IMG/VR virus record: IMGVR_UViG_3300000235_000008
Coordinates: 1-41,254 of that record
Strand: one strand, 5' to 3'
Source of the DNA: a virus
DNA length: 41,254 nt
Below are positions 2,279-29,472 of the stretch, piece after piece. The position numbers were made by a program, and so were the translations under genes. The first letter of the stretch is position 1, and every line of letters begins with the position of its first letter. Below the pieces are notes generated by a model. The model did not search any database. It had not been told where the DNA came from and saw nothing but the letters and a program-made list of their open reading frames with translations.

Positions 2279-2287
2279 GGAGATAAT

Positions 2288-2524: not shown

Positions 2525-2535
2525 GGTGGACGGTT

Positions 2536-6825: not shown

Positions 6826-6835
6826 GGAAAAATAA

Positions 6836-8050: not shown

Positions 8051-8055
8051 GACTA

Positions 8056-8086
8056 AACCAACTCTAAGGAGTTGGTTATATTTTAA
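8056..8086 (+). terminator. Hairpin terminator behind capsid gene
   Basis: A perfect 9-bp stem (AACCAACTC at 8056-8064 pairing with GAGTTGGTT at 8069-8077) closes a four-base TAAG loop and is followed by ATATTTT. It starts six bases after the capsid stop codon. The structure fits a factor-independent terminator or attenuator that makes capsid message more abundant than downstream ejection-protein message. The next gene still lies on the same strand, so read-through or a new promoter is expected. Confidence 0.8.
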
Positions 8087-8105
8087 ATAAATAAAAGGAT
8101 AGATA

Positions 8106-8639: not shown

Positions 8640-8649
8640 AAGAGATTAA

Positions 8650-9639: not shown

Positions 9640-9729
9640 AACCCTAATCTTTACGAATGTATGAACTAAAAACAGTTCGTGCTTTGTAGAGCTTCTAGGG
9701 ACTTACTTTTATATTAAAGGAATCAATTA
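9640..9729 (+). promoter_or_regulatory. 90-base leader with small hairpins
   Basis: A non-coding gap in an otherwise tightly packed late block. It holds nested short inverted repeats: ACGAA with TTCGT, and inside them GAACT with AGTTC around an AAAAAC loop (9652-9681), followed by a purine-rich ribosome-binding site (AAAGGAATC) for the gene at 9730. It could be a weak attenuator or an RNA processing site. No clear promoter boxes are visible. Confidence 0.3.
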
Positions 9730-10206: not shown

Positions 10207-10208
10207 AA

Positions 10209-12647
10209 ATGGCAATAGCATTTGGTTTTCTTTGGCAAGTAGTTGTAAATGTGTTTGAAGAAGTATTTAGTTGGTTTGGTATTGAAGATACTTCAGTTGT
10301 GACTAATTATAAATCTGTATCTCAGTTAGGGGCTAATAGGGAGTATCATATATTTAGTGATGGAATTAGAAATATATTAAACGAAAATAAAGATTTAACA
10401 GTTAATCATCTCATAGATTTAGAATTATACCAAAATGTACCCTTTAAAGTAAGAAGATATTTAAAATATTGTGCTAAAAATTTACCTAATGCTTTACCTA
10501 GTGCAGGAATTGAAAAAGTGCTAACAGATGATGATAAAACACAACTTAAAAATTATATACATGATAATTCTATATTAGTACTCCCTAATGATATAAACTC
10601 TGTTAAATTAACCAAAAAGAAGAGAACTTCTTTATCAGTACCAATAATGATGTGTGATAAATATGCAAGACTTACAGGATTAGCAGTCATAGAGAAAATA
10701 TATGGTGCTTCATGGTTCTATATGCAAAACTATAATTTACAAGGGAATCAAGTGATTCCTTATGCTAATCCCCCTACACAAGTACTCTATAATGGTAATA
10801 CTTATCCAGTTCAAAGAGAAGTGTTTGGTGGGGAGTTTTTACTAGACTATGATTATAGCTACGATGCTAATAACAGTAGGTGGGTGGTTTCACTTCGCTT
10901 TCCTGAAATATTTTTTGGGTACTTAGATACACCAATAGAAGAAGAAAAAACTGAAAATTATTTAATTAAAGACACATTAACTCAATTTCAAATGGATACA
11001 TTTTATGATACAGTAGATTATACTAGTACTGAATATTTAGTACTAGAATATACAGTAGTAAAAGAAATTAAAGGTGGGGATAAATATACAAACCATTCTA
11101 TCAATGGGACAACAGGCGAAATAACTTATAATAATGCTACCTATATTTCTTATTTATTAATTCCTTTTACCTCTAGCATGAATACAGGATATAGTGTTTT
11201 AGATAACTTTGAACCACCTACAAGTTATGATAATTTTTTCCCTGTATTACCACTTTACCAAGATAAAATATCTGTTTTATCTATGCTTACAGATAGTAAT
11301 CCACTAGTAGTACAGATAGCTAAAAGATATAAAAAAGCATTGAGAATAATAGATATAGATTTAGCAGATATATCAAATGGAATGTTATCTACTGTCTATA
11401 TAGATAAACAGATAGCCAAGGCTGAAACACAAGCAGAAAGAGATAATTTAGATAAGCAAAAAGAAGCTATACCTGATATAACAAATATTTTTTTACTCTT
11501 TGGATTTAAGTTTGACAAATATACAGAAGTAGTGTCTAATGGTTTATATTGGACTTTTAAAAGCCTAACTAGTAACCTGCAAGAAGATTTAGAATATGTA
11601 TTCTCCACAGGAAGTGAATATAATGTTAGAATGAAAGTAGATAAAATAGAAGCTACACATTTAACAAATATATCCCTTGATGGGGGATTGACTGTAATAG
11701 GACAATTAAAAAGAAAACATTATCATATCATAGATAAAGATGCAAAAACATTAACTGTGTATAAATTCTTATACTTACAACATAGTATATATGATGAATA
11801 CCATGTGGATAGAGTAGTAGTAACTAATCCCCAAATAAAACAACTAATTATAGGTAATCCTGATAAGAATAATAACAATACTTATTTTTTAGAGTATAAC
11901 TTAAAAGATAATCCTGAAGTATTTTATATTCCAATGAATTATCCATGGATGAAAGAAAGTATTTCTTTATTTGATGTAACACAGGCTTTTAACGATACAT
12001 TTCTTATGGAAACAGTTTTCTCACATACAACTTATTTAGCATGGTATCAAACTCCTGAATTTGCTAACTTTATACAAGTGGTAAGCATCATTATACTTAT
12101 AGTAGTTACAATATATACCTTAGGGACTGCAACTACATTTGTTGCAGGATTATTAGAAGTAGCTACTAATTTAGCTATATCTTATGCTATAAGAGAGATA
12201 GTAGCTCTTATAGATAACCCCTTACTTAAAGTATTAGTAGCTATTACTTTAAGTGCAGTTTCAGGGCAAATAGATGCTGAAGCAGTATTAGCAGGGTCAT
12301 TACCTGATATAGCATTACTAGCAACTGAAGCAAGTAAAACATACATGAATGCTAAAACTGAAATTGGATTAAAAAAAATAAATAAAGATTTAGAACAGTA
12401 TAATATTCTTATAACTAAAAAAGAGATGAATGATGCTGTGGTTATGTTACAGAATAATGGATACTTAGCAGACTCTGTATCAACAGACCCTATAAGAATG
12501 CTTACTGCAAGTACTATATACACTCATTTAAAAGATAATGGGTATGAAGATTATGATACCTTTATGAGCAGAACAAAAAGTTTACCGTTACTATTACCTA
12601 TGATAAGTGTTGGAGATATTATTGATACAACCATGATTAAAAAATAG
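10209..12647 (+). CDS. Large virion protein with hydrophobic region (N4 gp53 position)
   Basis: An 812-residue protein beginning three bases after the previous stop. Residues 1-600 are mixed, with many Tyr/Phe/Trp residues and beta-type patterns. Residues about 618-690 form a markedly hydrophobic region (FIQVVSIIILIVVTIYTLG, then FVAGLLEVATNLAISYAI, then LKVLVAITLSAVSGQ), capable of two or three membrane helices. By size and order it matches N4 gp53, a virion protein of about 95 kDa. Unlike the three genes after it, it contains cysteines. A neck, connector or ejection-pore function is inferred from position and the hydrophobic segment. Confidence 0.55.
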   Translation: MAIAFGFLWQVVVNVFEEVFSWFGIEDTSVVTNYKSVSQLGANREYHIFSDGIRNILNENKDLTVNHLIDLELYQNVPFKVRRYLKYCAKNLPNALPSAGIEKVLTDDDKTQLKNYIHDNSILVLPNDINSVKLTKKKRTSLSVPIMMCDKYARLTGLAVIEKIYGASWFYMQNYNLQGNQVIPYANPPTQVLYNGNTYPVQREVFGGEFLLDYDYSYDANNSRWVVSLRFPEIFFGYLDTPIEEEKTENYLIKDTLTQFQMDTFYDTVDYTSTEYLVLEYTVVKEIKGGDKYTNHSINGTTGEITYNNATYISYLLIPFTSSMNTGYSVLDNFEPPTSYDNFFPVLPLYQDKISVLSMLTDSNPLVVQIAKRYKKALRIIDIDLADISNGMLSTVYIDKQIAKAETQAERDNLDKQKEAIPDITNIFLLFGFKFDKYTEVVSNGLYWTFKSLTSNLQEDLEYVFSTGSEYNVRMKVDKIEATHLTNISLDGGLTVIGQLKRKHYHIIDKDAKTLTVYKFLYLQHSIYDEYHVDRVVVTNPQIKQLIIGNPDKNNNNTYFLEYNLKDNPEVFYIPMNYPWMKESISLFDVTQAFNDTFLMETVFSHTTYLAWYQTPEFANFIQVVSIIILIVVTIYTLGTATTFVAGLLEVATNLAISYAIREIVALIDNPLLKVLVAITLSAVSGQIDAEAVLAGSLPDIALLATEASKTYMNAKTEIGLKKINKDLEQYNILITKKEMNDAVVMLQNNGYLADSVSTDPIRMLTASTIYTHLKDNGYEDYDTFMSRTKSLPLLLPMISVGDIIDTTMIKK

Positions 12648-12687
12648 TATAATCTTTTAAATAAATTAAATTTAAAGGAAGTATATT

Positions 12688-13050
12688 ATGGCAGATACAT
12701 CAAATTATAACCCTTGGACAAGCAACGCCATGTTTGGTGGTGGAACAACTGACCCTAAAACAGGAGTAACACAAACAAATAATGGGTGGATGACATCAGG
12801 GTTAGGAGTTCTCTCTGATATTTATGGGATGTGGTTACAAAGAGAAAATATGAGAGCTATGAAACAACAGATAGCTAATCAAACTGCATTAGCAAGAACT
12901 AATCTCTACAACCAAGCAAAACAGATAAATGAGCAAAGAGATAATACTATGAAATCAAGTATGTTCCTTGATGGAAGTACAAGAGAACAAATAGACAATA
13001 AATTGAATAGTAAAGAGTATAACGACAGTAGATATAGAGGTACATTTTAA
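12688..13050 (+). CDS. Small ejection-type internal virion protein (N4 gp52 position)
   Basis: A 120-residue protein with ribosome-binding site AAAGGAAG. The N-terminal 40 residues are Gly/Asn/Thr-rich, followed by an amphipathic helix (residues about 50-100, WLQRENMRAMKQQIANQTAL). N4 gp52, in the same place, is a protein of about 16 kDa ejected with the polymerase. Like the 999-residue and 4,470-residue proteins that follow, it contains no cysteine. Its stop overlaps the next start (TAATG), so it is translationally coupled to the next gene. Confidence 0.6.
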   Translation: MADTSNYNPWTSNAMFGGGTTDPKTGVTQTNNGWMTSGLGVLSDIYGMWLQRENMRAMKQQIANQTALARTNLYNQAKQINEQRDNTMKSSMFLDGSTREQIDNKLNSKEYNDSRYRGTF

Positions 13051-16049
13051 TGGCTAAAAATACAATCACATGGAAAGATGTAGCACTAAATCCTACTGCG
13101 GTAGATATGACTAGTGCTATTAACAGTCAAGGTGTTTTTGGGCAAATGTTAGCAAATGAAGCACAAAAGATTGGTGCTAATAATCTTGCAAATTCAGAGA
13201 GTATTAGAAAAGCATTACATACTTTACAGCAAAAGCAAGTTATAAAAGAAAGCTTACCTCAATATAGTTATAATAATGCCACAGTAGGAGTGATACCAAA
13301 TCCTTATCAAGGTGGGCTGGTTACACAACAATATGCTCAACCAAGTATTCAAACTAGTGCTACTACTCTTAATAATAATCCTTTACCTATAAATGAGCAA
13401 GGACAAACTATCCCTGATGAAGTATGGGCAAAAGCAGGAATATTACCACAAAAAAGTACTAATAGCGCTCCATCAAGATATATGTTAGAAGTAGATGAAA
13501 TAATGCAAAATCCATCTGCAAGAGCTTTTAGCATGAATACAGGAAATGCTATTCCTGAAGATTTCTCAGGGTTAGTAAATAATTTAGTGAATCCATACAG
13601 ACCTGAATTTGAAGCTAATAGTCCCCTAAGCATCACACCAATGAATGATAAAATCACAGGGGGAAATGTAGCTACTTTGAGAAATGGTGAAGGAATATTC
13701 CCTTTAGATAATATGGTACAAAATGGTATTGATAGTGGTGTAGGTAACCGTCCCCCTAGTACTACCACAAATACTTCTACTAATGCTATCTCTCCTACTG
13801 CAAATAGAAACTTGACAAATAAGATTACATCCTTAACAGGAGCTATATCAGGTGGACATATCACAACTAAAAGAGGAAATAAACTTTTCGTAGTTAATAA
13901 TAATATTGGAGCAACTGCAAACAGTACAGTAAAAGAATTAGGAGCAGATGGATTAGCTATGGTATTTCGAGCATTAGAGAATCCTAGTGGTGTTAAAGAA
14001 GGTGCTAACCAAGGTAATAAGCATACTCCACTGCAAGATTATCAGGTACTTGAGAGTACATATAAAGGTATAGAAACACAGTATAATAATAAGCATAAAG
14101 GTCAAACTCCATTTAGAAAACTACCTATTCCTGAACAACTTAAAGTAGCAATAGCTGCTCACGGAATAAAAGATACAGACACAGCAGCTGTATCTTGGAG
14201 TAAGTGGAAAGGTGGAGGAGAAGTAGAGCGATTAGCAAAAACTAATTCCTTATCTTCATCAAGTATTAATGGGATGTTGTACAATATTGGTAAAGAGGAA
14301 ACTGCTAAGTTAAGAAAAAAGTATGGGAGTAAAATTCCTCAAATAGCAATTTATAATGCTGATGTTCAAGTAAGTGCAAGAAAGATAAATAACACTTTAA
14401 AAGCTAAGCCTAGCATACCTGATACTATCTCAGATAATTCAACTACTGAACAAGAAGTATATAACCCTAATCAGCAAGGTGCAATAGGTACTAACAATAT
14501 TGTTCAAGAGGGAAGAATTATTCCATCTAGCCAACAACAACAACTACCTCAACAGCAACAACAACTACCTCAACAGCAACTACAACCTGATTTAGGTGTT
14601 CCTATTAGTAATAACCAACTCCCTCAACAAGAGATGATAGCTCCTTATCAAGCACCTGTATTTGACCGAAGTAATTCTGTGTATGGTGTTCATGCTAACC
14701 CAATAATAGGAACGACTAAAGATGTAAATGGAATAGTACAACCAATAGTAAATACTCCTGATAAAGTATTTCTTCCTAAGTTGATTAGTCCTTATGAAAT
14801 GGCTGAAATATACAAAAGTAAAGGTATAGGTTTAACAGCTGACTCCATAGAAGATTTTGGAAAAACTTACCAAGACTTGTATGATAAACAACATTTAGCC
14901 GCAAGTACAGCAAGTAATACTTTAACTAAAAGTGTTAATGATACAAATATTAATGCTGCTGTGGAAGCTAATAATACTTTAAGAACAAAGGCACAAATAG
15001 CTCCGCAGAATGCACAGAATATTACAAATGATAAAAGAGTAACAGCAGAGATAAAAAGTGATAAACAGGAGTATGACTTTAAGAACAAAGTATATAAGGA
15101 TAATCAAAAAGTAATTAAAGATGCTACAAATAGAACTACTAAAGAATATAATGCAGCTATTGACACTAACAATAGCATTCTTACTGAGACTATAAAAGAA
15201 ATGAAGAATTCTTATATAGCATATAATCAAAAAGCATTTACAGTTAATGCTGAAAGTTTAAGTAAAACGCAAACAGTAAGTACAAAAACAAAAGTATCAG
15301 GAGACCCTTTAATACAATCTAAAGCAATGTTAAATAAAATAGCTGAGGGGATTAAAGCAACAGATACTGTTGATTTAGATTTTCATGAACTAAAAGAATC
15401 TAAAGCAGCATATGATAAATTAGGTAAAGCATTAGGTGTAAATTTAAAATACTTAGATAAAGAGGGTATTCCTAAAGTAGGAGAATCTGACTATACAAAA
15501 GTAGGTAGAATGCTTGGAGTTAAAGGCACATACACAATAGATAAAATAATTAATACCTTTGTAGCAGATGCTACACATGGAAAAGGTAAATATAACACGA
15601 GAGTAATAAGAGATATTACACCTGCTAACCTAAAAATATTATCAGGATTAATAAAATATCAGAATCCTAATTTTAGTTTAGAGCAAGTACAATCAAAATT
15701 AACTTCTCTAATACCCTCTTTATCTTCACGACCTACATCTTTACAAGTTGGTAAATTAAATATAGATAGACTTGATATACTTTTCGGAAAAGGTTCACAA
15801 GGTGTTTACAAATACCTAGATGCAGAAGATAAAACTAGATTTAATTCACTATTTAAAAGTCTTTCTTCAGAATATGAAGAGTATGCAAAAGATATGGCAG
15901 TATATAAAAGAAGTGACAATAAAAATAATGTTAACAATCTTTTAGATAGTTTAAAAGAAATTTTAAATAATAATGCTACTTTTAAAATGAAAGCAAGAAT
16001 AAATAGACATAAAAGTGAAATAAAAACAAATAATAGTTTAAGAAAGTAA
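13050..16049 (+). CDS. Internal (ejected) virion protein, 999 aa (N4 gp51 position)
   Basis: The start overlaps the preceding stop (TAATG). N-terminal 230 residues are Asn/Gln/Pro-rich and low in order. Residues about 255-450 look globular, with a segment of the kind seen in muramidase-like or peptidase cores (ITTKRGNKLFVVN, then LPIPEQLKVAIAAHGI), though no catalytic set is certain. Residues 495-513 are a Gln/Leu/Pro tandem repeat. Residues 620-720 are helical with N, K and T, and the C-terminus is basic. It contains no cysteine. By position it equals N4 gp51, ejected with the virion RNA polymerase, so a role in the ejection channel or polymerase delivery is inferred. Confidence 0.6.
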   Translation: MAKNTITWKDVALNPTAVDMTSAINSQGVFGQMLANEAQKIGANNLANSESIRKALHTLQQKQVIKESLPQYSYNNATVGVIPNPYQGGLVTQQYAQPSIQTSATTLNNNPLPINEQGQTIPDEVWAKAGILPQKSTNSAPSRYMLEVDEIMQNPSARAFSMNTGNAIPEDFSGLVNNLVNPYRPEFEANSPLSITPMNDKITGGNVATLRNGEGIFPLDNMVQNGIDSGVGNRPPSTTTNTSTNAISPTANRNLTNKITSLTGAISGGHITTKRGNKLFVVNNNIGATANSTVKELGADGLAMVFRALENPSGVKEGANQGNKHTPLQDYQVLESTYKGIETQYNNKHKGQTPFRKLPIPEQLKVAIAAHGIKDTDTAAVSWSKWKGGGEVERLAKTNSLSSSSINGMLYNIGKEETAKLRKKYGSKIPQIAIYNADVQVSARKINNTLKAKPSIPDTISDNSTTEQEVYNPNQQGAIGTNNIVQEGRIIPSSQQQQLPQQQQQLPQQQLQPDLGVPISNNQLPQQEMIAPYQAPVFDRSNSVYGVHANPIIGTTKDVNGIVQPIVNTPDKVFLPKLISPYEMAEIYKSKGIGLTADSIEDFGKTYQDLYDKQHLAASTASNTLTKSVNDTNINAAVEANNTLRTKAQIAPQNAQNITNDKRVTAEIKSDKQEYDFKNKVYKDNQKVIKDATNRTTKEYNAAIDTNNSILTETIKEMKNSYIAYNQKAFTVNAESLSKTQTVSTKTKVSGDPLIQSKAMLNKIAEGIKATDTVDLDFHELKESKAAYDKLGKALGVNLKYLDKEGIPKVGESDYTKVGRMLGVKGTYTIDKIINTFVADATHGKGKYNTRVIRDITPANLKILSGLIKYQNPNFSLEQVQSKLTSLIPSLSSRPTSLQVGKLNIDRLDILFGKGSQGVYKYLDAEDKTRFNSLFKSLSSEYEEYAKDMAVYKRSDNKNNVNNLLDSLKEILNNNATFKMKARINRHKSEIKTNNSLRK
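14532..14588 (+). repeat. In-frame tandem repeat coding Gln-rich QQQQLP units
   Basis: Three adjoining units of 18, 21 and 18 bases (CAA/CAG runs ending CTACCT) encode residues 495-513 as QQQQLP, QQQQQLP and QQQLQP inside the 999-residue virion protein. The reading frame is kept by units of multiples of three. Such tracts usually form flexible linkers and vary in copy number between relatives. Confidence 0.85.
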
Positions 16050-16059: not shown

Positions 16060-19000
16060 ATGGCAGAAATCACAGAACTAATAACAGATACCCCTAACTT
16101 AGAATTTGATGATAGGCATCTTCAAGTACTAAAACCTGGGCAATCTTTTAAAGCTAATACCTATGAAACTTTACCTAATAGTAACGAATTATTAAGTATA
16201 GAAAATAAAGAATTACGACAGTACCTTTTAGAAAATGGAGTTAGTGAAGCAGAGTTAACTACCCTTAGAGATAAGGCAAGACTTAACTTTATAGATTATG
16301 AGAATAGGGTAGGTGGTACTCTTAATAATGCAGAAGGAATTGCTTCCATAGGGGGAAGTGGTTATTATACATACAAAGGTTCGTACACTAACCCAGCATT
16401 AATAAAAAAGCAAGAAAATCTTTTAAATGCTCTTGAACAAAAGAATGATAGTTTGGGATTAAAGGTTGCTAAATTATCCAAAGAGTATCAACTAAATAAA
16501 GAAGGAGCAAATAAGTATAAAGAGAAAGATACACTACTATATCCTGATGGTGTAGGAAGAGCAGTAAATACTGTTCTATCAGGGGCTGTTAAGCTAGGTG
16601 ATTCTACTTTGAGTACTTTTCTCCCTGATGCTTTATATGCTCAAACACCAACACAAAATATTGATAAATATTTTGGTAGAACTGAAGAAGTTAAACATGA
16701 CGATTATCAACTAAATGTTGCTACAACTAAACTTCTTGATGGGGATATTACAGGAGCTATTAGTTCAGGTACAGGTGCAGCATTAACTACTACAATGCAC
16801 TCATTACCTGATATTGCTTTAATAGGTACAGGAGTAGGAGCATTAACTAAAGTAGGAAGAGCTACACAAATACTAAAAGCTTACAAAGAGGGTAAGTTAT
16901 GGGCAACTTTAGGTATGGCTAATGAAGCTAAGAAAGTACTTGAAACAGCTACTATTGCTAACAAAGTAGCTACAACAGTAGCAAATAATGCAGGGTTACT
17001 AGTGTATGCTACAAAAGATACTGACAGAAAATTAGGTGAAAGACAAGCTAATAATGGCTATGAGAGTATCTCACCGTTAGAAAGAGGGTTGGTTTTTGCA
17101 GAATCTGTATTTTCAGGATATTTAGAAAAGTTTGCCTTTGATAAAGTATTAAGTCCTATGGACTTTAAAGGTATGCACGAACTATTTAATAGTGTACCTG
17201 CTAGTATGAAAGAGGGGTTACTTAAAGAAACACTAAAAACAAATGCTTTATTAGGAAAAGCTTTATTAGAAGTACCTAAAGCAGCAATAGTAGAGGGTGG
17301 ACAAGAAGCATTACAAACATACACAGAACTATTATCAACTAATGCAGGTACTAAAGTTGGTATGCCAACAGATGAAGAATTAAAATTTGAAATAGCTAAA
17401 GGTGCATTAACAGGTGCATTGGGTGGTGGTGCTATGAGATTTGGTGGAAGCCTTGTATCTCAAACATTAGATGGGTTAGATGCTACTGCTAGTAATATTG
17501 TAGGAGGTATAAAAAATGTATTTACTTCTAAAGATAATCAAGAGGATAATGATTTAAATGCTAGTAGCAATATAAACGAAGATATTCAACCTAGTAGTGA
17601 TAGTTATGCAGGGCTTAATAAATATGTTGTAGATGAAGTAGATACAGAGGGTAATAGTAATCAAAAAATAAGTTTACAAAGTATCTATATGCCTGAACAA
17701 GGTACAGAGTTATCTGCTAGAGTAAAATCAGTTGAAAGCATATTAAATGAAGTACATATGTCAGATATGCTTCCAACTGCTGAAGATTCTTTTGCAACTT
17801 TAACTTCTAGTTTAAAGAAAAATAAAGATATTCCTAGAAGTGAAAAACTAGCACAAGTTAATGATTTTATAGACAATACATTACCAATACTTAAAGGAAG
17901 TTCATATATCAATATAACAGATAGACTAAGAAAAGCTATCACAAACTTAACTAATGAGCCAAGTAGTGTAGATTCTATCACTTCTGTTGAGAGCCTTACA
18001 GATTTTAAAAATACAATAGAAAGTATTTATGCTAAAGAAAAAAAGGATATAAAATCACATTCTGAAGTAACAGAATCAGTTAATGTTATCAAAGAAGCTC
18101 TGCAAGAGTTAATAGAGAATGATAAAAAAATTAATAATGAAAATTCTTCTTTTACTAACATTGATACTAATAAATTTTTAACAAGAGCAGAGAGTATCGA
18201 CCGTGAAACATTTGATGATATCTATGGAAATATTGATAATGGGGATAATACTAATACTAATAGTGAAGATGATGAAGTAGCTCCTAGCTTTGATAAGACA
18301 AAGAGTACTATTAAAGAAGATAAATCAAAAGGAAAAAATAAATTTAAATCTTTGCTAGACACTGCTAAAGATATAGTCTATGGAAGTAATGATAAATCTT
18401 TTAAAGGAACTAGAGAGTATTTAAAAGAAGCTAAATTATACAAAGCATTAAAAACTCCTAATAATTCTGACATTAAAAAATTTAATACTACTACAAAAGA
18501 ATTACATAATTTTAGAAATAAAATGAATGAAAAATTAAAGATGTATCAAGCATTGCAAAGTAAAGCTACTGATACAAATAAAATTATTGCTTTTAAATAT
18601 GGTTATGAAAATAATTTAGCTAATATTACCGAAGAAAAAGAAGTAGAAAATACTAAAGAAAATATAGCACAGTTAAGAGAAGAGGGGTATAACTATATTT
18701 TACCTAAGTATAAAAATGGTAATGGTAGCCAAGCCCTTATTGATAGAGTCTCTCGTGAAATAAGCTACTTGGATGGTTTTATAAAGAGATTTAGTGAAGT
18801 TAATAATGTAGAAGTAAAAGATACTAAAGATGAAGTAGAAGATACCATTGCTGAAAGTAAGGTTGATAATAAGGAAGATACTAAAGATACTAAAGATACT
18901 AAAGATACTAAAGATACTAAAGATACTAAAGATACTTCCAATGAGCAAAAAATTATTAAAGATACTAAAGATGAAGTAAAAGATACTAAAGATGAAGTAA

Positions 19001-22000
19001 AAGATACTAAAGATGAAGTAAAAGATACTAAAGATGAAGTAAATGTAAATTCTGAAGATACTAAAGATGAAGTAAATGTAAATTCTGAAGATACTAAAGA
19101 TGAAGTAAAAGATAAAAAAAGTGTTGAAGAGTATTTACTAGAAGCTAGTTCTATTCCTGAAAAAAATAGATACATAGAAAAAGTATCAAAAGGTATTAAA
19201 GATACTTTTGGTTTAATAGCAAGTAAAATACCTCTTAATATCGATATTATACAACCATCTCCCTATATCACAAAGTATGCTTCTAGTCTTGCTAATTACA
19301 CTATACATTCAGGCGGAGCTGTTGGTGCAGATTCCATATGGGGAGCTATTGGTTCAGCATTAGGAGCTAAAGTAAATCATTATTATGCTGATACTAAAAC
19401 ACCTAATGGTAATGTAAAGATAACACAAGAGCAGTATAATGAGGGTTGGTTTAAAGCTAAAGAAGCACATACTAATTTAGGGAAAGATTTTAAAAATAAA
19501 AAACCTGTTAATTTTAGCACATTTGATACAACGACTAAAGAATTTCAAGGGCTTCAAGCAAGGAATTATCAACAAATTAAAAATAGTAGTATCGTATTCG
19601 CAGTAGGAAGCCTTACAAAGCAATATGGGACAAACAGAATAATTGCTAGTGGTGGAACAGCATATGCAATAGAAATGGCTAGTATTGATAATAAACCTAT
19701 ATATTTCTATAATCAAGATACAGTAAATGGTTTTGATATTGGTTGGTACTATAAAGAGGGAGTAGATAGTAGTACATTCATTAAAATAAACTATACTCCA
19801 ACTATCCCTAAAGATAATACTAATTTTGCAGGGATAGGAATTAGGAAAATAACACCTAATGGTGTTCAAGCTATTATTGATGTGTTTGAAAATTCTGTAA
19901 TAGCAGAACCTAAAGATATTATTACAAAAATAGATAAAGAAATCGCTCTTAGTGGATTCATTACAAAAGCATTATTACACAAACCAACAGAATTTAATTT
20001 TACAGAAGAGGATGTCAAAGAATATAATAAACCAACCCTAGTATCCAATACTAATGACTTTAAATACTTAGCAGAAGTATTAGATACAGTAGCATTAAAG
20101 GTGTTATTTGCAAAGGATAATGATAAAACTTCTATTACTGATAACTCCATATATGATTTTATAGTACAAGAATTTAAAGATAAAAATTTACTAGATAAAG
20201 ATATTAGAGATATCACCATAAATAAAATAGCTGAACTAATAAGTAATAATAAATCTTTAGCTTCATTCTTAAGTAACAGTGGAAATAATTCTGTAAGAGA
20301 GGGTATAGAACAGCATTTTAATAAATTTACAACAGACCAAACAGATTTCTTACCTATACTTCTATTCAAAGCTATAAAAAAATATTATGATGATAAAATA
20401 CTTGAAAAGAATGAAGAAGTTGCTAAAGCAGAAAGAGTTAAAAATATTTTTAATAATTATGCTAACAATTCAAATACTGTAAGTAATAACCAACTACAAA
20501 TAGAAACACCTATCCTTAATGCTATTACAACTTATCTAAATAATAGAATATTAGATAGATTAAAAGATATTTATCCAAGTAAAAGTATTAATATCTTAAA
20601 AACAAATGATATAGAATATAATGAAAAAACTACTATTGAAGTAAAAGGTAAAGAGGTAATTGTATCTATCCCTAAGTTTGAGTTAGATATTAATAAAGAT
20701 ATGAAAGATTCTTTTATATCTTTATATAATAATTTTTCAGAATATTATACCCCACTAATGACAAAATTATTAGTAACAACAGATACAAAAAGTATTGAAA
20801 ATAAAGAAAAAATACTTAAAGCAAATATTGCTAGAAAAAATATAGTAATGAGTGATGAACAGATACATAAAACTGTAATTGATGAGATGGTTAAAAGATT
20901 AGTAATTCCATTAACCAACCCTCTATTCATTGTCAATAAACTTGCTGATGGTAATATCCATGCTTACTTAGCTAGTAATAGTAAAGCTAGTTTAGAGATG
21001 AATAATCAGAATAAAGAATCATCCTTGGTAAGTCAAAAACTATATACTTTATTAGCAAAGAATAATGTCACTAAAGAAATCCCCTATACAGAGTATGAAA
21101 AAATAATAAAAAATGAAAGACAAACTACTTATGGGGTGGTTAAACCAAAAGGTGTACTAAACTATTCAAAATTGCTTAATTACAATATAATAGTCTTTAA
21201 ACAAAATTATTCAAAAGCACTTGAATTAGCTAATGAAGTAAATATTCCAATGTTATTAGCTAATAATAGTATTGTAGAAGACTTTGAAAAGATAGGATAT
21301 ACAGCATATAAAATAGTTGGTGAAAACAAAACATACACTACACTAGTTGTACCTCCTAAAAATAGTCCTTTATTAGTTGCTAAAAAAGAAATAGCTATTA
21401 ATATATTTGAAGATTCTTTAAATAGTAAAGCAGTTAAATCAACACTTAAAAACACAGATACTAAGTTGCTTCAAAAAGATTCAGAATCAATTGTTAGTGA
21501 TATAGCAGATGATGTAATAGCTAAGAAAATAAATAATAAAAATGATAAATTAAATAGTCCATTAGAAAAATTATTCTCAACAATAGAAAGTATAAAATTA
21601 GTTGATAGTGTACAGCTAAAAAACTCTGATAAAGTAGAAATGACTAAATCTACTATGCTACTAGTTGATGATAAAAATATTTTAAAACCTGAATTTGCTA
21701 AAGTTGTTAAATATGTAACCTCTAAGTGGTTGTTTGAAAATGGTTCAAAAACTGTTTATAATGAAGATAAAGCATTAAAAAGAATGCTTGGAATATCAGA
21801 AGATGTAAAATTAAGTTACTCTAAATCAACAAATTTTTTTAGAAAAATAGGTCATAGACAACAGTATATGATAGACAATATTTCAAATGAGATAAATAAA
21901 ATAATTAAATTATCTCCTGTGCTACAAGAGGAATTAGGTAGCAATACAGATATTAGTGATTTAAGAATAGTAGATGAATTAGTAAGTACTTTAGCATTGA

Positions 22001-25000
22001 TAGCTATACATTCGATGAGTGTATCAAATATGCTTACTGAAACAGCTTTAAAAACAGGTGAAGTAGCAGGGCATATCATAAATATAAATGGCAGTAGTGA
22101 ATTTACAGAACTACGACCAACTAATATTGAAAATGCAGAATCTTTACAATACTTTTATACTATAAATGATTTAAGAAAAACTAATACTCAATTATGGAAT
22201 GCTAAACAAGCAATTATAGAATTAAAAGAATTTAAAAATACAGCTGATTTATTAATGGGCGATAAAGACTTTGATACTATTGTTTATACTGAACCACCTA
22301 CCACAAATACTTCTATACTCCACTCACCTAGTAATGTTAAAGCTAGTAATAAAATAGCTAAAGCTATTACAAAACTAAATAATACTAAGTATGTAGTATC
22401 AGATGCTTTATCCTCTTTACATGAAATATTTAAAGATACAGGAGGATTAAAATATTTACTTGGCTATACATTAGAGAGTGATATGATTAAGATGACAGAA
22501 GAGAGCAGTAAAGGTAAAAATATTGAGATAGATAGAACAATAGATAGTATTAGAGAATATGCTAAATTAAAAAATATAGGGATATATTTTAATCACAGAG
22601 CAACAGTAACTAAAAGAATGATACAGATGGGTAATGGTGGTAATACTCCACAAGCTAATAAGTTCTTAAGAAATTTCTTAGATGTAGATAATTCTAATGT
22701 CAATATCCCATTTAATTATGAAAAATCACATTATGAGTTTAAAGAAGCAATAGCACAAGCACATGGTGCTAAGCTTAAAAAAATGTATAAGAACGAAATA
22801 GAAGAGTCTTTTGGTACTTATATAGCAGAGTTTGAAAGAGATACTTATAATGATATAGATAGGTTGGTTAATAACAAAGAGCTATCTAAAGAGGATAAAA
22901 TTGATTTACTTATTAAGCTACGAGACTTAATGGAAGATATGGGTGAAGAAACATACTCACTTAGAAGCTTATTTGAAATGTATAATTATATAAATGCTAA
23001 AAATAATAACACACTTGAAGATTATTTAAAGGATACAAAATTTACAATAGAACTAGATAGTACAACCAATGGGTTAGCAATACAAACAATGATGTATTTT
23101 TCTACTAAGTTTTTTAGTATTGCTAAAGGACAATTAGAAAGATTAGGAATATTTCTAAAAAATGGTTCTAATCATATAAGTACCGTAGCAATGTTTAAAA
23201 ATTCAAATGATATTTATCAACATATTATAAGTAAAGCTTTAGAATTCATGAATAAGAATAATACTATATCTAAAGAAGTAAATGAATTTCTAGTAGAGGT
23301 ATATGGAGAATACACAGATGGTAATAAAGGCATAGTAGTGTCAAGTAAGTATAGAGCTTTAGCTAAATTAATAATCATGCCTATACAGTATGGTGCTTCA
23401 GTTAAAGCTTCATTATTATCTCTATCCAAAGGAATGTATTATGATAGCATCAATATGTTAGCAGATACAAGTGTACCATTAGCTAAACGAATAAAAATAG
23501 CTAAAATATTGTTAACTATGTCAGGCAGAAAAAGAGAAGCTAATACTTTAAGTGAGTTAGTAAATGGTATTAAAACATTTGAATTTACACCTCAAGAACA
23601 AAATAAAATAATTGAATCTATTACAGACAGTTTTTTACCAGGTATAAAACATATGTATGATTCAGAATTAGCTATGATAGGGGAATCAAGAAAAGTAGTA
23701 ACAGATTATTTATCTCCTTTACTGACAATTTTTTCTGATGAATTAAAAACTAGACTAGAATTTGAAGTAAGTAAATACACTATACAAACAAAAGAAACAG
23801 ATATAGATAAAATAATAGCTGAAAAGAAAAAATACATCCCAACAGCACTTATTAAAAAAGTACTAGATGAGATGTTAGAAGATGGTTGGTTTCCACAAGT
23901 AGAAACAGCAGATGGAAATATAAATCTTATTGAACCTGAAATGATATACCGTAATTTAGGACAGGGGATGGTTATATCACCTACTATGCCAATATCTACA
24001 AATATTGTAACAGGAAGTAATAATCAAAAAACTATGAGAAGTACTAATATGTTAGGTGTTGGTATGCTTCCCTATGGGATTAATTCAACAGTAGCAGGTG
24101 TACATAGCATAGATGCTGTAATAGCTTCAATAACTATGTTAAATACAGAGTTAAGTATGAACTATATATTTGATGCGTTCATGCTTAAATTAGGTAATAG
24201 TAGTGAAATTGCTAAAGATTATAATGGTAATTTATTTAATATTGCTACTACATATAATTTAGTTACTAGTATTACAAAAGCTATTGATAAAGTACTGAAT
24301 ATGAGTTTTAATACTAATGAAGAATCTCATAGAACATTAAAAGAGAATACTTATAATAAACATTTGGAAAGTATTGAAGGTAGAAAGGTTTTAACTAGCG
24401 AACTATTAGCAGTAAATAATGTTCCTAGTAGTGATGAGACAAGTACTTATAAAGTAAGCCATAAAAATTATGATTTGGATACAAGTTTAGTACATAATAC
24501 AAATCCATTAAATATTAAATTATTAGATAAAAAATCACTAATTAATGCTTATGAAGAAACAGTATATAAGAAAGTTAATGATATTGAAACAATAGAAGAA
24601 ACTACTAGTTATAGAGGTAATTTAGCAGATACCTTTAATATATTTTCTCTTTATAATAACCCTGCCGAAGAATATTATATGTTTGAATATGATGCAAATG
24701 AATTAAATAAATATGAAAAAGGAGACATAGTATCAAACATACCAAATAATGGAGAAGCTTTAACAAGGTACTATAAAATTATAGAAGTAGGTACTATAAA
24801 TTATCAAGAATTTAAATCTTATTATGAGGATATAAAAAATAAGATGTTAAAAGCTTTAACTAAAAATGGTAGAAATGTAATAGATTCATATCTTACAAAA
24901 GTATCTACTTTATTTTACAATGATAGTATAGATGCTACGGATTCAGGTATGTTTGGTACTCTAAGGGGATTTACTACTTATTCTAACCCAAGTAATACTA

Positions 25001-28000
25001 AAAGAATAACATCTTATAAAATACAATTATTAGATGAATATTCTTCTGAAGAAATAATTTCTTCAGAGTATATAGATTACCTGAGTAAAAAATATTCTTA
25101 TTCTAACAAAGATTTAAAAGTAAAAAATAATTATGAAAGACTTAATATTAATAATAAATTATACCTAGATAAAAATCATTTTATAGAAAATAATAAGTAT
25201 GGTTTTGATAGAAAAATAAATAATTATTCGGCAATAGTAAAAGCATTTAATTCAGAAAAGCTTTATGATATAATAAAGGTAAGAGTTTCACTATCACAAA
25301 TACAAAAAAATAAATTAGATAGTAATATTAGTGCATTGAATGCAATTTGGGATAAAGAATATGCTAATGTACATGGAATTCCAACAGATATACAAACAAT
25401 AGAATTTGCTAGTATTGATAATAATAATAATACTCTTAATAAAACATATACAGGAGAAGCTTACTATGAATTATTATCTTTAACTGAAGAAAAATTACTA
25501 GAAGGTATTCCTGAATTACTCACTGAACACTACATAATAGCAAGACCAAAAGAAGATAAAAAAGCAACTGCTTTATTAATAGATAATGGAATGCTATTAA
25601 GTGATAATGCAGTATATCATCCTAAATTAGACTTAACTAAAGGTTTTTCTTCCCTTATTAAACAACATTTGCTCATAACCAACCCCAATACAGAGCTATT
25701 GTATATTCAAGAATCAAATACTTACATTACTTCTGATAAGATTAAATTACTAGCTTTGTACAGAAATTTAATCAACAATAGAAATGAAATTATTGATGAG
25801 CATGGATTAAATACTGTCTCTTTAAACTCATTAAACTCATTGAATAATTTAAGTAAAGATGTTAAGCCTATAATATCTACACAAGAAAATAGTAATGCTG
25901 ACAATACCTATTCTAATATGGATATTAAAAATAATAAGAATTACCATACTATTAAAAAAGTATTTGATAAAGTAATAATTGATAATAGTACCATTAAAGA
26001 AGTTTTAAAGTACCTACAAAGCAAAACTAATGTAGGAGATACAAATCTAGCACTAAAATCATTTAATGAGCTTGTAGTACCTTTTATAGATAAGTATAGT
26101 GGTATCTTATCAGTAGAAGAAACAAATGAAGCATTAACAAGTGGTAGTGTGATACATAAAGTAGATATTGATGAGATAAATATTAAAGTAAGTAATGCAA
26201 CTCCTATCAATAGTAATGAGCAATCCCCTGTACAAGTATATGTACATGAGCTTATACATACCATAGCTGATAGAGCTATTGACTTACCTGCTAATACTTT
26301 TATTCGTTCACAACTATTTAAATTATATACTTTAAGTAGAACTAATGCTACACCTGAAATATTTTTATCCAATGTAGAAGACATTGAATCAGCTAAAGCA
26401 TTAGCAATAGCTCAATACAATACAATTTATAATAATAGTAAGCCATCACATGGACTGAATGAGTTTATAACTTATTCATTAACCAACCCACAATTTGCTG
26501 AGTATTTATCTTCTTTGTCAGATATTTCAGCACCTAATGGTCTTGTCTCTAAAATAGTTTACTATACTAAACAGTTACTTGATTCCTTAGTAAGACGGAT
26601 ACTCGGATACTCTAAAAAAGATAAGGATATTCAAAAAGAAGTTCATACTTTGGTTGCACAACTTAATACAATCACTAAAAGTAAAATAGATATTAAGTAC
26701 CTAGCAGCTATGTACAGCTATTTAGATATGGCAGATAGTAAGATAGCTGAATATAAAGCAAGAGTACTCACTGATAAAATAATGGCAAAAGTAGATACTA
26801 AGAATGAATCTCCTACATGGTCTCTTATTAAACTAATGTATAACTATGGTATTGCATTACTAGCTAAAGAAGATGAAGGTAACAATCCTTGGATTAAAGC
26901 TTATCAAAAAGAAGTTAAAGTTAGTGTTAATAACAGCTATATTAATCATGCTATAAGAGATAGTGTCGGAGTAACTGATAAAGATGCAACTATGTCTAGT
27001 ATGCTCCTAGATACAGCTAAAGGAAACTTAATATACCTGTATGATGAACTTACTAATAAGTCTAAAGATATTCTTGACTATAAACTTATGATAAGAAAGT
27101 TTAAAAATAATATTGATAGAACAAGAGAAGCAATAGAGCTATACTATAAGAAAGAGATAGAACTCATTACAAAAGATTTAGATGATAATGAGCTAAACTT
27201 ACTTACTGATATTATCATGTATGCTGATACAAAATCATTGAATGATATAAAAGTTATAAATGATACTATTAAAATAGATAATTATCTTAGCTTTATAAAA
27301 GATGATAATCAGATAGATTCTGTTATAGATATCTTATCTAAAGAGCAAGACATAAATATTAAAACTGAAAAAATTGCAGAAAATGCTTCATTCATACTCA
27401 ATGGGAGTATTAGTGGTAAAGATTATAATGATAATTCTTTTAAAAGTAAAAGCTTTAGTATTAATGGATTAACTAAAAAGGATATTGGAAGAAGTGTCAT
27501 AACCACCCTCTTAGCATTGAAACAGATACCTCTTAATACTAGAAACAATCTAAAAATATCTTCAACTAATTTTGATAAGTTAATTAATACATCTTTATTG
27601 TATGAGAATGAATTATACGCTTTAAATAGAACTAACACTACTGTTGATAAAGGTGCTAAAGGTAAATACTATGCTAGACAATTTCAAGGACATAAGTTTA
27701 TATACTCCTTGAAAAGCAATACTGATAAGATAAAACAATTAAACAAGTCTAATAAATTTGCAGTTAATAAACACATTAAAACTGTTCCTAATCCATTTGA
27801 ACCTAGTGACCCTATTGAAGTTTATTTAGTACCATATGATGAAACATCCTTCATTCAAGGTATTCTAACCTATGGTAATAAAGATAAATCTAATTCACTT
27901 GGAAGTATATTTAGACAACTATATCCATCTAATGAGGGGATACCTCTTGAAGCATTTACAATAGCTAAAGATAAGGCTAAAAATTTAAGTGAGTTTTCCC

Positions 28001-29472
28001 CTGTGTATAGTAGTAATTATAAAGATATGAGAGTACAAGATTATGAATTGAAAGCATTTACACATAACGAATTAAATGAAATGTTTGGTAAGTCTAAAAA
28101 AATTACAGATGTACTTCCTGAAGCATTTGGTATGTTAAAAGAGATTAAACAATCTTCTGAGAACAATATAAAAGCACTTGAAACAGTAATTAAAGATTCT
28201 TTAAAAAATAAAAATGATAAAGATTATATAGCTGTAAATTTCAAAGAAGATAGATTTAGTTATCTATGGGCTTTATTAACTCCTGAAGTTAAAAACTATT
28301 TAACATCTAAAAATAAAACTACAATTTATATAAAAAAAGAAGTGTTTAGATATTTATTTGGAATGGGTAAAGGATTTAGTATCACAAGAGTAATAGGATT
28401 ACCTGATAAATTTAAATCAACATTAGGATTTGCTGAAGAAGTATATACTAGTTTTATTAAGTTAGTTAAGCATGATATAACCATAAAAACTCCTAGTGTA
28501 TTCATGAATAATATTACTAGTAATTTAAACTTATTGTGGATTAAAGGTGTACCAATGGAATACTTAATGGAGTCAATTCCTATAATAGAGGATTACCTAA
28601 GTAAGACTAAAAGATTAAGAATACTTCAATCTAAAAGATATATTATAGGTAATGATAGTTCAGTAGTAAATGAATACAATACTGTTAAGCATGAGTTAGA
28701 AAAGAATCCTTTGCATAATATGGTAGAACAAGGATTAATTAATTTTATTACTGAAGATAGTAGTATAGGGGATGTACATAAAGATAAAAATATAATTACT
28801 AAAAAGTTTAGTAAGCAAATAGAAAAAGCTAGTAGCTATAAAGCAATTAAAGAGCTGTATGCGTTAGATGGTTCTGAATCCTTAAGAGTTATGCAATCCT
28901 TTGTGCAATATGGAGATGTAATGGCTAGATATGCTTTACAAAAGCATTTATCAATACAAGTAGATAACAGTAAAGTAGATAAGCTAACTATTAATAAAAT
29001 TAATGTTTTATTAGGTAAAGATGGTAAAAAACTAGCACATGGGATAACTATTGAACAATTTAATAAACAAATACCACAGATGATACTAGACAACAGTACG
29101 AATTATGGGTTGGTTACAACTTTAAATTCTTTACATAATAAAGTTGATATCTATATGAATGGTATAAAAGAAGATATAAAGAATGAAGTATTAAGAACAT
29201 TTGTCACTTATGATTTACCTGTAACCAAGACAGCAGAGTTTTTAGATAGATATGGTTTAGCTTTATTTCATAAATTTGCTATTAGAATACAAAGTATTAT
29301 ATTCTCATTATTCAGTGAAGCTCCTGCTAGAACACTTGTAAGTACTATGCTTCAAAACTTAATAGGTAATATATCAGATGTTACTGATTCACAGTTTGAT
29401 ATCTTACCTAATAGTATGAATGCACTAGATGGAATGGAAGTATTGCTTACACCACCTGTATTGGAGTTTTAA
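16060..29472 (+). CDS. Giant virion-associated RNA polymerase with SLOG-like and zincin-like domains (N4 gp50 homologue)
   Basis: A 4,470-residue protein (N4 gp50 has 3,500), ribosome-binding site AAAGGATGG. Domains seen: hydrophobic/Gly-rich N-terminal segments (about 228-265, 405-470, EGGQEALQ and GALTGALGGGA); DTK tandem linker (940-1016); SLOG-like domain (about 1075-1275, HSGGAVGADSIW at 1083-1094, ASGGTA at 1196-1201, FAGIGIRK); single-subunit RNA polymerase core (about 1760-2870): T-x-x-K-R (T2182-R2186), motif A D2333 (ELDSTTNGL), motif B R2432-xxx-K2436 and Y2444-G, motif C H2682-xx-D2685 and D2705 (YIFDAF). Spacings of the catalytic residues (147, 103, 8, 261) closely follow N4 mini-vRNAP (135, 111, 8, 273, from memory). 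A HELIH zincin-type motif is at 3396-3400 with E3468 a possible third ligand. No cysteine found. Packaged and ejected to transcribe early genes (established for N4, inferred here). Confidence 0.9.
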   Translation: MAEITELITDTPNLEFDDRHLQVLKPGQSFKANTYETLPNSNELLSIENKELRQYLLENGVSEAELTTLRDKARLNFIDYENRVGGTLNNAEGIASIGGSGYYTYKGSYTNPALIKKQENLLNALEQKNDSLGLKVAKLSKEYQLNKEGANKYKEKDTLLYPDGVGRAVNTVLSGAVKLGDSTLSTFLPDALYAQTPTQNIDKYFGRTEEVKHDDYQLNVATTKLLDGDITGAISSGTGAALTTTMHSLPDIALIGTGVGALTKVGRATQILKAYKEGKLWATLGMANEAKKVLETATIANKVATTVANNAGLLVYATKDTDRKLGERQANNGYESISPLERGLVFAESVFSGYLEKFAFDKVLSPMDFKGMHELFNSVPASMKEGLLKETLKTNALLGKALLEVPKAAIVEGGQEALQTYTELLSTNAGTKVGMPTDEELKFEIAKGALTGALGGGAMRFGGSLVSQTLDGLDATASNIVGGIKNVFTSKDNQEDNDLNASSNINEDIQPSSDSYAGLNKYVVDEVDTEGNSNQKISLQSIYMPEQGTELSARVKSVESILNEVHMSDMLPTAEDSFATLTSSLKKNKDIPRSEKLAQVNDFIDNTLPILKGSSYINITDRLRKAITNLTNEPSSVDSITSVESLTDFKNTIESIYAKEKKDIKSHSEVTESVNVIKEALQELIENDKKINNENSSFTNIDTNKFLTRAESIDRETFDDIYGNIDNGDNTNTNSEDDEVAPSFDKTKSTIKEDKSKGKNKFKSLLDTAKDIVYGSNDKSFKGTREYLKEAKLYKALKTPNNSDIKKFNTTTKELHNFRNKMNEKLKMYQALQSKATDTNKIIAFKYGYENNLANITEEKEVENTKENIAQLREEGYNYILPKYKNGNGSQALIDRVSREISYLDGFIKRFSEVNNVEVKDTKDEVEDTIAESKVDNKEDTKDTKDTKDTKDTKDTKDTSNEQKIIKDTKDEVKDTKDEVKDTKDEVKDTKDEVNVNSEDTKDEVNVNSEDTKDEVKDKKSVEEYLLEASSIPEKNRYIEKVSKGIKDTFGLIASKIPLNIDIIQPSPYITKYASSLANYTIHSGGAVGADSIWGAIGSALGAKVNHYYADTKTPNGNVKITQEQYNEGWFKAKEAHTNLGKDFKNKKPVNFSTFDTTTKEFQGLQARNYQQIKNSSIVFAVGSLTKQYGTNRIIASGGTAYAIEMASIDNKPIYFYNQDTVNGFDIGWYYKEGVDSSTFIKINYTPTIPKDNTNFAGIGIRKITPNGVQAIIDVFENSVIAEPKDIITKIDKEIALSGFITKALLHKPTEFNFTEEDVKEYNKPTLVSNTNDFKYLAEVLDTVALKVLFAKDNDKTSITDNSIYDFIVQEFKDKNLLDKDIRDITINKIAELISNNKSLASFLSNSGNNSVREGIEQHFNKFTTDQTDFLPILLFKAIKKYYDDKILEKNEEVAKAERVKNIFNNYANNSNTVSNNQLQIETPILNAITTYLNNRILDRLKDIYPSKSINILKTNDIEYNEKTTIEVKGKEVIVSIPKFELDINKDMKDSFISLYNNFSEYYTPLMTKLLVTTDTKSIENKEKILKANIARKNIVMSDEQIHKTVIDEMVKRLVIPLTNPLFIVNKLADGNIHAYLASNSKASLEMNNQNKESSLVSQKLYTLLAKNNVTKEIPYTEYEKIIKNERQTTYGVVKPKGVLNYSKLLNYNIIVFKQNYSKALELANEVNIPMLLANNSIVEDFEKIGYTAYKIVGENKTYTTLVVPPKNSPLLVAKKEIAINIFEDSLNSKAVKSTLKNTDTKLLQKDSESIVSDIADDVIAKKINNKNDKLNSPLEKLFSTIESIKLVDSVQLKNSDKVEMTKSTMLLVDDKNILKPEFAKVVKYVTSKWLFENGSKTVYNEDKALKRMLGISEDVKLSYSKSTNFFRKIGHRQQYMIDNISNEINKIIKLSPVLQEELGSNTDISDLRIVDELVSTLALIAIHSMSVSNMLTETALKTGEVAGHIININGSSEFTELRPTNIENAESLQYFYTINDLRKTNTQLWNAKQAIIELKEFKNTADLLMGDKDFDTIVYTEPPTTNTSILHSPSNVKASNKIAKAITKLNNTKYVVSDALSSLHEIFKDTGGLKYLLGYTLESDMIKMTEESSKGKNIEIDRTIDSIREYAKLKNIGIYFNHRATVTKRMIQMGNGGNTPQANKFLRNFLDVDNSNVNIPFNYEKSHYEFKEAIAQAHGAKLKKMYKNEIEESFGTYIAEFERDTYNDIDRLVNNKELSKEDKIDLLIKLRDLMEDMGEETYSLRSLFEMYNYINAKNNNTLEDYLKDTKFTIELDSTTNGLAIQTMMYFSTKFFSIAKGQLERLGIFLKNGSNHISTVAMFKNSNDIYQHIISKALEFMNKNNTISKEVNEFLVEVYGEYTDGNKGIVVSSKYRALAKLIIMPIQYGASVKASLLSLSKGMYYDSINMLADTSVPLAKRIKIAKILLTMSGRKREANTLSELVNGIKTFEFTPQEQNKIIESITDSFLPGIKHMYDSELAMIGESRKVVTDYLSPLLTIFSDELKTRLEFEVSKYTIQTKETDIDKIIAEKKKYIPTALIKKVLDEMLEDGWFPQVETADGNINLIEPEMIYRNLGQGMVISPTMPISTNIVTGSNNQKTMRSTNMLGVGMLPYGINSTVAGVHSIDAVIASITMLNTELSMNYIFDAFMLKLGNSSEIAKDYNGNLFNIATTYNLVTSITKAIDKVLNMSFNTNEESHRTLKENTYNKHLESIEGRKVLTSELLAVNNVPSSDETSTYKVSHKNYDLDTSLVHNTNPLNIKLLDKKSLINAYEETVYKKVNDIETIEETTSYRGNLADTFNIFSLYNNPAEEYYMFEYDANELNKYEKGDIVSNIPNNGEALTRYYKIIEVGTINYQEFKSYYEDIKNKMLKALTKNGRNVIDSYLTKVSTLFYNDSIDATDSGMFGTLRGFTTYSNPSNTKRITSYKIQLLDEYSSEEIISSEYIDYLSKKYSYSNKDLKVKNNYERLNINNKLYLDKNHFIENNKYGFDRKINNYSAIVKAFNSEKLYDIIKVRVSLSQIQKNKLDSNISALNAIWDKEYANVHGIPTDIQTIEFASIDNNNNTLNKTYTGEAYYELLSLTEEKLLEGIPELLTEHYIIARPKEDKKATALLIDNGMLLSDNAVYHPKLDLTKGFSSLIKQHLLITNPNTELLYIQESNTYITSDKIKLLALYRNLINNRNEIIDEHGLNTVSLNSLNSLNNLSKDVKPIISTQENSNADNTYSNMDIKNNKNYHTIKKVFDKVIIDNSTIKEVLKYLQSKTNVGDTNLALKSFNELVVPFIDKYSGILSVEETNEALTSGSVIHKVDIDEINIKVSNATPINSNEQSPVQVYVHELIHTIADRAIDLPANTFIRSQLFKLYTLSRTNATPEIFLSNVEDIESAKALAIAQYNTIYNNSKPSHGLNEFITYSLTNPQFAEYLSSLSDISAPNGLVSKIVYYTKQLLDSLVRRILGYSKKDKDIQKEVHTLVAQLNTITKSKIDIKYLAAMYSYLDMADSKIAEYKARVLTDKIMAKVDTKNESPTWSLIKLMYNYGIALLAKEDEGNNPWIKAYQKEVKVSVNNSYINHAIRDSVGVTDKDATMSSMLLDTAKGNLIYLYDELTNKSKDILDYKLMIRKFKNNIDRTREAIELYYKKEIELITKDLDDNELNLLTDIIMYADTKSLNDIKVINDTIKIDNYLSFIKDDNQIDSVIDILSKEQDINIKTEKIAENASFILNGSISGKDYNDNSFKSKSFSINGLTKKDIGRSVITTLLALKQIPLNTRNNLKISSTNFDKLINTSLLYENELYALNRTNTTVDKGAKGKYYARQFQGHKFIYSLKSNTDKIKQLNKSNKFAVNKHIKTVPNPFEPSDPIEVYLVPYDETSFIQGILTYGNKDKSNSLGSIFRQLYPSNEGIPLEAFTIAKDKAKNLSEFSPVYSSNYKDMRVQDYELKAFTHNELNEMFGKSKKITDVLPEAFGMLKEIKQSSENNIKALETVIKDSLKNKNDKDYIAVNFKEDRFSYLWALLTPEVKNYLTSKNKTTIYIKKEVFRYLFGMGKGFSITRVIGLPDKFKSTLGFAEEVYTSFIKLVKHDITIKTPSVFMNNITSNLNLLWIKGVPMEYLMESIPIIEDYLSKTKRLRILQSKRYIIGNDSSVVNEYNTVKHELEKNPLHNMVEQGLINFITEDSSIGDVHKDKNIITKKFSKQIEKASSYKAIKELYALDGSESLRVMQSFVQYGDVMARYALQKHLSIQVDNSKVDKLTINKINVLLGKDGKKLAHGITIEQFNKQIPQMILDNSTNYGLVTTLNSLHNKVDIYMNGIKEDIKNEVLRTFVTYDLPVTKTAEFLDRYGLALFHKFAIRIQSIIFSLFSEAPARTLVSTMLQNLIGNISDVTDSQFDILPNSMNALDGMEVLLTPPVLEF
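18877..19107 (+). repeat. Nested in-frame tandem repeats (DTK / DTKDEV linker)
   Basis: Six 9-base units GATACTAAA (18877-18930) encode Asp-Thr-Lys; after a short break come four 21-base units (18961-19041, DTKDEVK) and two 33-base units (19042-19107, NVNSEDTKDEV). All share the DTKDEV core, and a degenerate copy precedes them from about 18811. They encode residues 940-1016 of the giant polymerase, a charged, probably extended linker between the N-terminal part and the SLOG-like domain. Not a CRISPR array: units abut without spacers and keep frame. Confidence 0.9.

Follow-up and report, generated by a model that had tools for sequence, protein, structure and literature searches.

SLOG domains bind or process nucleotides. 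In ThsA the SLOG domain is a sensor of cADPR (PMC10022894), and viral SLOG domains, which typically occur as standalone proteins, have been proposed to target host immune signals derived from ADP-ribose (ADPr) (PMC9503650). The virion RNA polymerase (vRNAP) of phage N4 is present at 4 ± 1 copies per virion, has flexible linkers at residues 907–1007 and 2102–2123, and carries an HExxH motif in its zincin-like C1 domain (PMC12633501). A survey of polyvalent proteins lists ART, lysozyme and PBECR domains as partners of N4-type RNA polymerases (RNAPs), with no mention of SLOG (PMC5512222); the main text of a genome analysis of crAss phages names neither SLOG nor DprA (PMC7886860). In the open-access literature we found no description of a SLOG domain fused to a virion RNAP, and the available part of a jumbo-phage paper contains no such fusion. 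This agrees with a preliminary description of the present locus, which knew of no published SLOG domain in an N4 vRNAP; an earlier description elsewhere is possible.

Results

We analysed a 41,254-nucleotide stretch of viral DNA (the window; positions 1 to 41,254 of IMG/VR record IMGVR_UViG_3300000235_000008), which by its gene content comes from the genome of a Schitoviridae-like phage. Genes for a portal protein (PHROG_1216), a tape-measure-like protein (PHROG_2120) and the major head protein (PHROG_1357) precede a giant open reading frame (ORF), and convergent replication genes, including an exonuclease, a Dda-like helicase and a primase, lie 3′ of it. The major capsid protein is at most 50% identical to its counterparts in N4-like phages of Salmonella, Erwinia and Klebsiella. 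Judged by its sequence, the giant ORF is an N4-type vRNAP, as it retains RNAP homology, the residues of motifs A, B and C, and the HExxH motif of the C-terminal domain (CTD). Its main features outside the SLOG domain are as follows.

16060..29472, + strand: ORF of the N4-type vRNAP, 4470 aa (open frame; PHROG_2206, E 8.1e-112)
16060..18800, + strand: N-terminal region equivalent to the NTD, aa 1 to ~914 (by position only)
18811..19109, + strand: charged tandem-repeat linker of KDTKDEV type, directly 5′ of the SLOG domain (Tandem Repeats Finder, 21-nt and 33-nt periods)
21427..24516, + strand: single-subunit RNAP domain, aa 1790–2819 (PHROG_2206 match; alignment A4)
23050..23076, + strand: RNAP motif A, ELDSTTNGL, with D2333 (alignment A4)
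23350..23397, + strand: RNAP motif B, with R2432, K2436 and YGA (alignment A4)
24157..24180, + strand: RNAP motif C, NYIFDAF, with D2705 (alignment A4)
26242..26259, + strand: HExxH motif (VHELIH; HELIH at aa 3396), zincin-like CTD motif as in N4 C1

The window RNAP gave no tblastn match among phages at 1e-5, alignment A4 was too divergent to serve as a scan seed, and single-sequence scans of viral contigs with either the window SLOG or the window RNAP returned nothing. Residues 1–1060 have no Pfam match, and the N-terminal region matches no family. Between the RNAP and the HExxH domain lies an extra segment of ~500 residues (aa ~2830–3330; 24547–26049), which has no Pfam or PHROG match and takes the place of a 23-aa linker in N4. 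By analogy with N4, and with B2 and Moo19 as analysed by mass spectrometry (PMC11654681), the window vRNAP is probably packaged in the virion and ejected. With an RNAP, a SLOG domain and an HExxH motif in one polypeptide, the ORF is a polyvalent protein of the presumptively ejected class.

The preliminary description placed a SLOG-like domain within this vRNAP at 19261–19860 on the strength of three motifs. All three are present in the ORF, PHROG_768 identifies the SLOG domain, and PHROG_2206 together with motifs A, B and C identifies its host protein. That span cuts off the last helix; the elements of an AlphaFold2 (AF2) model place the domain at 19291–19905.

19291..19905, + strand: predicted circularly permuted SLOG domain, aa ~1078–1282 (PHROG_768; alignment A3; AF2 model; model of the relative L058 against PDB 3IMK)
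19306..19341, + strand: HSGGAVGADSIW motif, aa 1083–1094; S1084, G1085, G1086, G1089 and D1091 invariant
19561..19575, + strand: R1168-N-Y-Q-Q1172, invariant Arg and Gln ahead of the central strand
19645..19662, + strand: ASGGTA motif, aa 1196–1201; G1198, G1199 and T1200 invariant
19825..19848, + strand: FAGIGIRK motif, aa 1256–1263, the C-terminal GxGxR element; A1257, G1258, G1260 and R1262 invariant

PHROG_768, labelled "DprA-like", matches the 200-aa SLOG segment alone (E 3.8e-7), and tblastn with the window SLOG finds the vRNAP of Klebsiella phage Pylas (E 9e-23). Eighteen positions are invariant over 60 SLOG relatives (alignment A3) and the window retains all 18, among them the predicted pocket motifs SGGxxGxD, GGT and GxGxR. 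These three results rule out a chance motif match, and the presence of the same architecture in Pylas and in two further loci (L017 and L018) rules out an assembly chimera. In five pairs of SLOG relatives dN/dS ranges from 0.02 to 0.34, indicative of purifying selection. Residue 1205, taken to be the position of the catalytic Glu of LOG enzymes (PGGxGTxxE), is Glu in the window and Gln, Glu or Ala in 33, 14 and 13 of the 60 members, respectively. Because this position varies, a LOG-type hydrolase is unsupported and no catalytic mechanism is indicated.

The AF2 model of the window domain (pLDDT 90.2, pTM 0.88) has a strand–helix order that fits a permuted form of the Rossmannoid alpha/beta SLOG fold with its five core strands. 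A Foldseek search of the PDB with this model gave no significant match, phmmer with the window SLOG found nothing in the PDB, and the SLOG profile found only weak PDB matches (best E 1.4). For L058, a compact relative, the model reached pLDDT 96.9, and the best PDB match of this model is 3IMK, annotated as a putative molybdenum carrier (probability 1.00, E 1.5e-3, TM 0.50/0.54), which we take to be a member of the cpYpsA family PF12694. The motif order is consistent with this match. In 20 cpYpsA proteins SGGxxGxD comes first, followed by R, GGT and finally AGxR, and the window SLOG is co-linear with them; its GxGxR element stands last, whereas in DprA and YpsA it stands first. Segments of the DprA profile match in swapped order in Pylas and in locus L056, and the Pylas segment that matches FAGIGIRK aligns with DprA profile positions 45–70. 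The Pfam models most often touched by the 60 members, all below threshold, are cpYpsA (15), nucleoside deoxyribosyltransferase (14), DprA (11) and LDcluster4 (9). A PF12694 search of the window record gave no match and the relatives score ~16 bits, against a gathering cut-off of 26.2 bits; one hhalign comparison of the SLOG family with cpYpsA gave a probability of only 41%, with E 2.9e-4. Since the motif order matches that of cpYpsA proteins and the DprA segments are swapped, the assignment of the window domain as a circularly permuted SLOG, close to PF12694 but at most a candidate member of it, is well supported by sequence and model.

The permuted order also bears on whether the domain handles DNA in the manner of DprA, binding single-stranded DNA of the incoming genome and aiding the loading of the polymerase or of host proteins. 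The PHROG_768 label, and the contact of some members with the DprA Pfam model, would fit such a role, as would the use of single-stranded templates by the N4 vRNAP (PMC12633501); with one genome per cell, a low copy number would suffice. However, the SLOG domain of DprA has an N-terminal GSR and the order here is permuted relative to it, the best fold match of L058 is the cpYpsA-type 3IMK rather than DprA, and most vRNAPs of both the N4 and crAss types have no SLOG domain. We therefore consider DNA handling of this kind unlikely.

The comparison of N4-type vRNAPs identifies the domain as an accessory insertion. In Pylas the SLOG lies at ~958–1171, in the linker between the NTD and the RNAP. 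Salmonella phage FSL SP-076, a close relative (89% identical over the RNAP query), has the flanking linker and lacks exactly the SLOG block. Among 417 phage records that match the Pylas RNAP, a SLOG match within the vRNAP occurs only in Pylas (two records) and Alteromonas phage PT15-A5, and in an RNAP-seeded IMG/VR scan 41 of 43 N4-type loci have no SLOG, the two that carry it being seed loci. SLOG is thus not a normal part of all gp50 proteins. The preliminary description would have been undone by the absence of a SLOG match or by the presence of the segment, as a non-Rossmann fold, in all gp50 relatives; a match was obtained and most relatives lack the segment.

The window, Pylas, L017, L018 and PT15-A5 carry the SLOG ahead of the RNAP, whereas L060 and L067 carry it behind, in the RNAP–CTD linker. 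Each site corresponds to one of the flexible linkers of the N4 vRNAP. In L067 the N4-type RNAP and the SLOG plus CTD occupy consecutive in-frame ORFs (1208–9814 and 9818–15430) separated by one stop codon; the split may reflect an error in the sequence or an arrangement as two genes. The PT15-A5 copy (L010, 12890–13468) is degenerate, lacking the SGGA and GGT motifs while still matching the profile at E 2e-28; the pocket can therefore be lost.

An IMG/VR scan seeded with the SLOG alignment alone extended the family beyond N4-type proteins. The best 80 of 251 relatives were kept; because similarity to the window domain set the ranking, its closest kin are over-represented. The non-redundant set has 59 loci: 33 in polypeptides of at least 1000 aa, 24 standalone and 2 in between. 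The 33 giant polypeptides comprise 21 crAss-type RNAPs, 4 N4-type RNAPs and 8 others, so that within this best-80 sample 25 of the 59 loci fuse a SLOG to a detectable virion RNAP (L067 being counted as an N4-type fusion via its adjacent split ORF). The cr113_1 protein matches 6VR4, the crAss-type polymerase of phi14:2 (E 5e-30), and the other loci were assigned by a local profile (E <1e-27), with a DFDxD motif in most; by tblastn the crAss-type segment matches records annotated as RNA polymerase. In this group the SLOG lies on either side of the polymerase. Two further loci, L052 and L047, carry it within proteins that match internal-virion and virion-structural families.

Several annotations and smaller architectures accompany these loci. 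RefSeq labels the whole giant proteins of cr113_1, cr109_1 and cr130_1 "DprA-like", hiding the polymerase. Two proteins annotated as "DprA-like DNA recombination-mediator protein" (NC_055896.1, 31391–44377, L012; NC_055901.1, 13777–31182, L013) both match the crAss-type RNAP profile and owe that label to the SLOG domain alone. SLOG is fused to the A1S_2505_Nterm phage domain in L038 (9545–10513), L045 and L089 (9455–10522); the NF049995 model, applied to L038 and L089, gives E 3e-29. A search of 84,980 species genomes yielded only 18 SLOG loci, most of them standalone copies in Flavobacteriia, along with contigs that encode giant proteins. On the chromosome of Flavobacterium sp. xlx-214 (L112) a standalone SLOG of this family (8007–8567) is immediately followed by a WYL-domain regulator (8574–9503), and in the Flavobacteriia loci L102 (7989–9041) and L105 (7944–9062) the SLOG frame runs on into a UPF0227-like hydrolase (Pfam, L102).

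In a SLOG tree the window falls with L017 and L018 (SH-aLRT 88), L067 joins crAss-type members (95) and Pylas the internal-virion group (81); the branch to the window is long, and support at several forks is weak. This separation of the window, Pylas and L067 suggests that N4-type vRNAPs acquired the domain more than once. It also bears on whether the SLOG is a neutral or structural bead, meaning a mobile domain that the linker tolerates and that serves no ligand-related function. The domain sits in a low-complexity linker, the PT15-A5 copy has decayed and most relatives do without the domain. Against this stand the 18 pocket-type residues that do not vary among 60 divergent relatives, the purifying selection in relative pairs and the repeated acquisition by unrelated ejected proteins, and we consider a neutral bead quite improbable. 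Neither the circular permutation nor the recurrence in crAss-type RNAPs featured in the preliminary description. We have high confidence in the fold class and the motifs of the domain, in its being an insertion and in its recurrence in unrelated ejected proteins.

Discussion

We favour, at a probability of roughly 0.4, a reading in which the SLOG is an extra bead in the NTD–RNAP linker that would be ejected with the polymerase and act in trans, very early, on a host nucleotide ligand as counter-defence or host take-over cargo. On this reading the permuted SLOG folds independently and occupies the flexible linker that joins the N-terminal region to the polymerase. It would come into the cell together with the polymerase, as N4 suggests, and reside in the cytoplasm at the membrane-bound ejectosome. 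There it may act on a NAD-, ADP-ribose- or other nucleotide-derived host molecule. With about four copies entering, such action would be catalytic or directed at a scarce target. By our own arithmetic four copies in a 1-fL cell correspond to ~7 nM, too little relative to a micromolar signal, which makes a stoichiometric sponge unlikely. The ADPr prediction for viral SLOGs (PMC9503650) used a YpsA-like clade, which may differ from that of the window SLOG, and no neighbouring gene for NAD or ADPr processing was identified in the window. The role suggested in the preliminary description, in which the domain would bind or cleave a host signalling nucleotide as counter-defence, is plausible.

The domain could instead work in cis, binding a host nucleotide and thereby switching vRNAP activity, ejectosome opening or CTD autoinhibition. 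The sensor function of SLOG in ThsA (PMC10022894) and the location of the domain in linkers that are flexible in N4 (PMC12633501) are in keeping with such a switch, which is also compatible with a low copy number and a LOG-type Glu that is not conserved. Nevertheless, the family occurs before and after the RNAP, alongside RNAPs of two unrelated folds, inside internal virion proteins that have no RNAP and in standalone genes. Because its carriers are so varied in kind and in the position of the domain, trans-acting cargo is favoured over a regulator of one enzyme, and we regard a cis sensor as an improbable account.

A broader and somewhat more tentative proposal than trans-acting cargo in the window protein is that the permuted SLOG family is recurrent cargo of ejected virion RNAPs, spanning two unrelated polymerase types as well as internal virion proteins, and that before phage gene expression it may deliver counter-defence aimed at nucleotide signals, or may sense nucleotides and couple this to early transcription. 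Most known phage anti-defence proteins act only after transcription and translation of their genes; a nucleotide-binding domain on the entering polymerase would act at time zero. The presence of the same permuted family in N4-type and crAss-type RNAPs, whose polymerase folds are unrelated, points to selection for delivery by ejection and raises the interest of the domain; crAss-like phages dominate the human gut virome. Pylas and FSL SP-076, one with and one without the SLOG, offer a clean cassette difference in otherwise similar proteins and thus a direct test object.

Ejected polyvalent proteins are a known class; what appears new is the combination of a SLOG with a virion RNAP. Like those proteins (PMC5512222), the window ORF is multidomain and joins an N4 RNAP and a zincin to an additional enzyme-like domain. 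It shares with N4 gp50 of the Schitoviridae the succession of NTD, linker, single-subunit RNAP motifs A, B and C and HExxH-bearing CTD, as well as a neighbourhood of portal, major capsid protein, vRNAP and convergent replication genes; it differs in the permuted SLOG within the NTD–RNAP linker, in the added segment before the HExxH motif and in length (4470 versus 3500 aa). The Pylas vRNAP (gp65) has a SLOG at the same linker, 36% identical to that of the window, and its record names no SLOG; because the Pylas domain branches with SLOGs of internal virion proteins and not with the window, it is probably a separate acquisition. The crAss-type polymerase of phi14:2 (gp66; PDB 6VR4) is likewise an ejected virion RNAP, but has an unrelated, two-double-psi-beta-barrel fold, and the same SLOG family is carried by several of its relatives and is not known from 6VR4 itself. 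The domain itself most resembles cpYpsA (PF12694; 3IMK), its best fold match via the L058 model, with which it shares the permuted order SGGxxGxD ... GGT ... AGxR.
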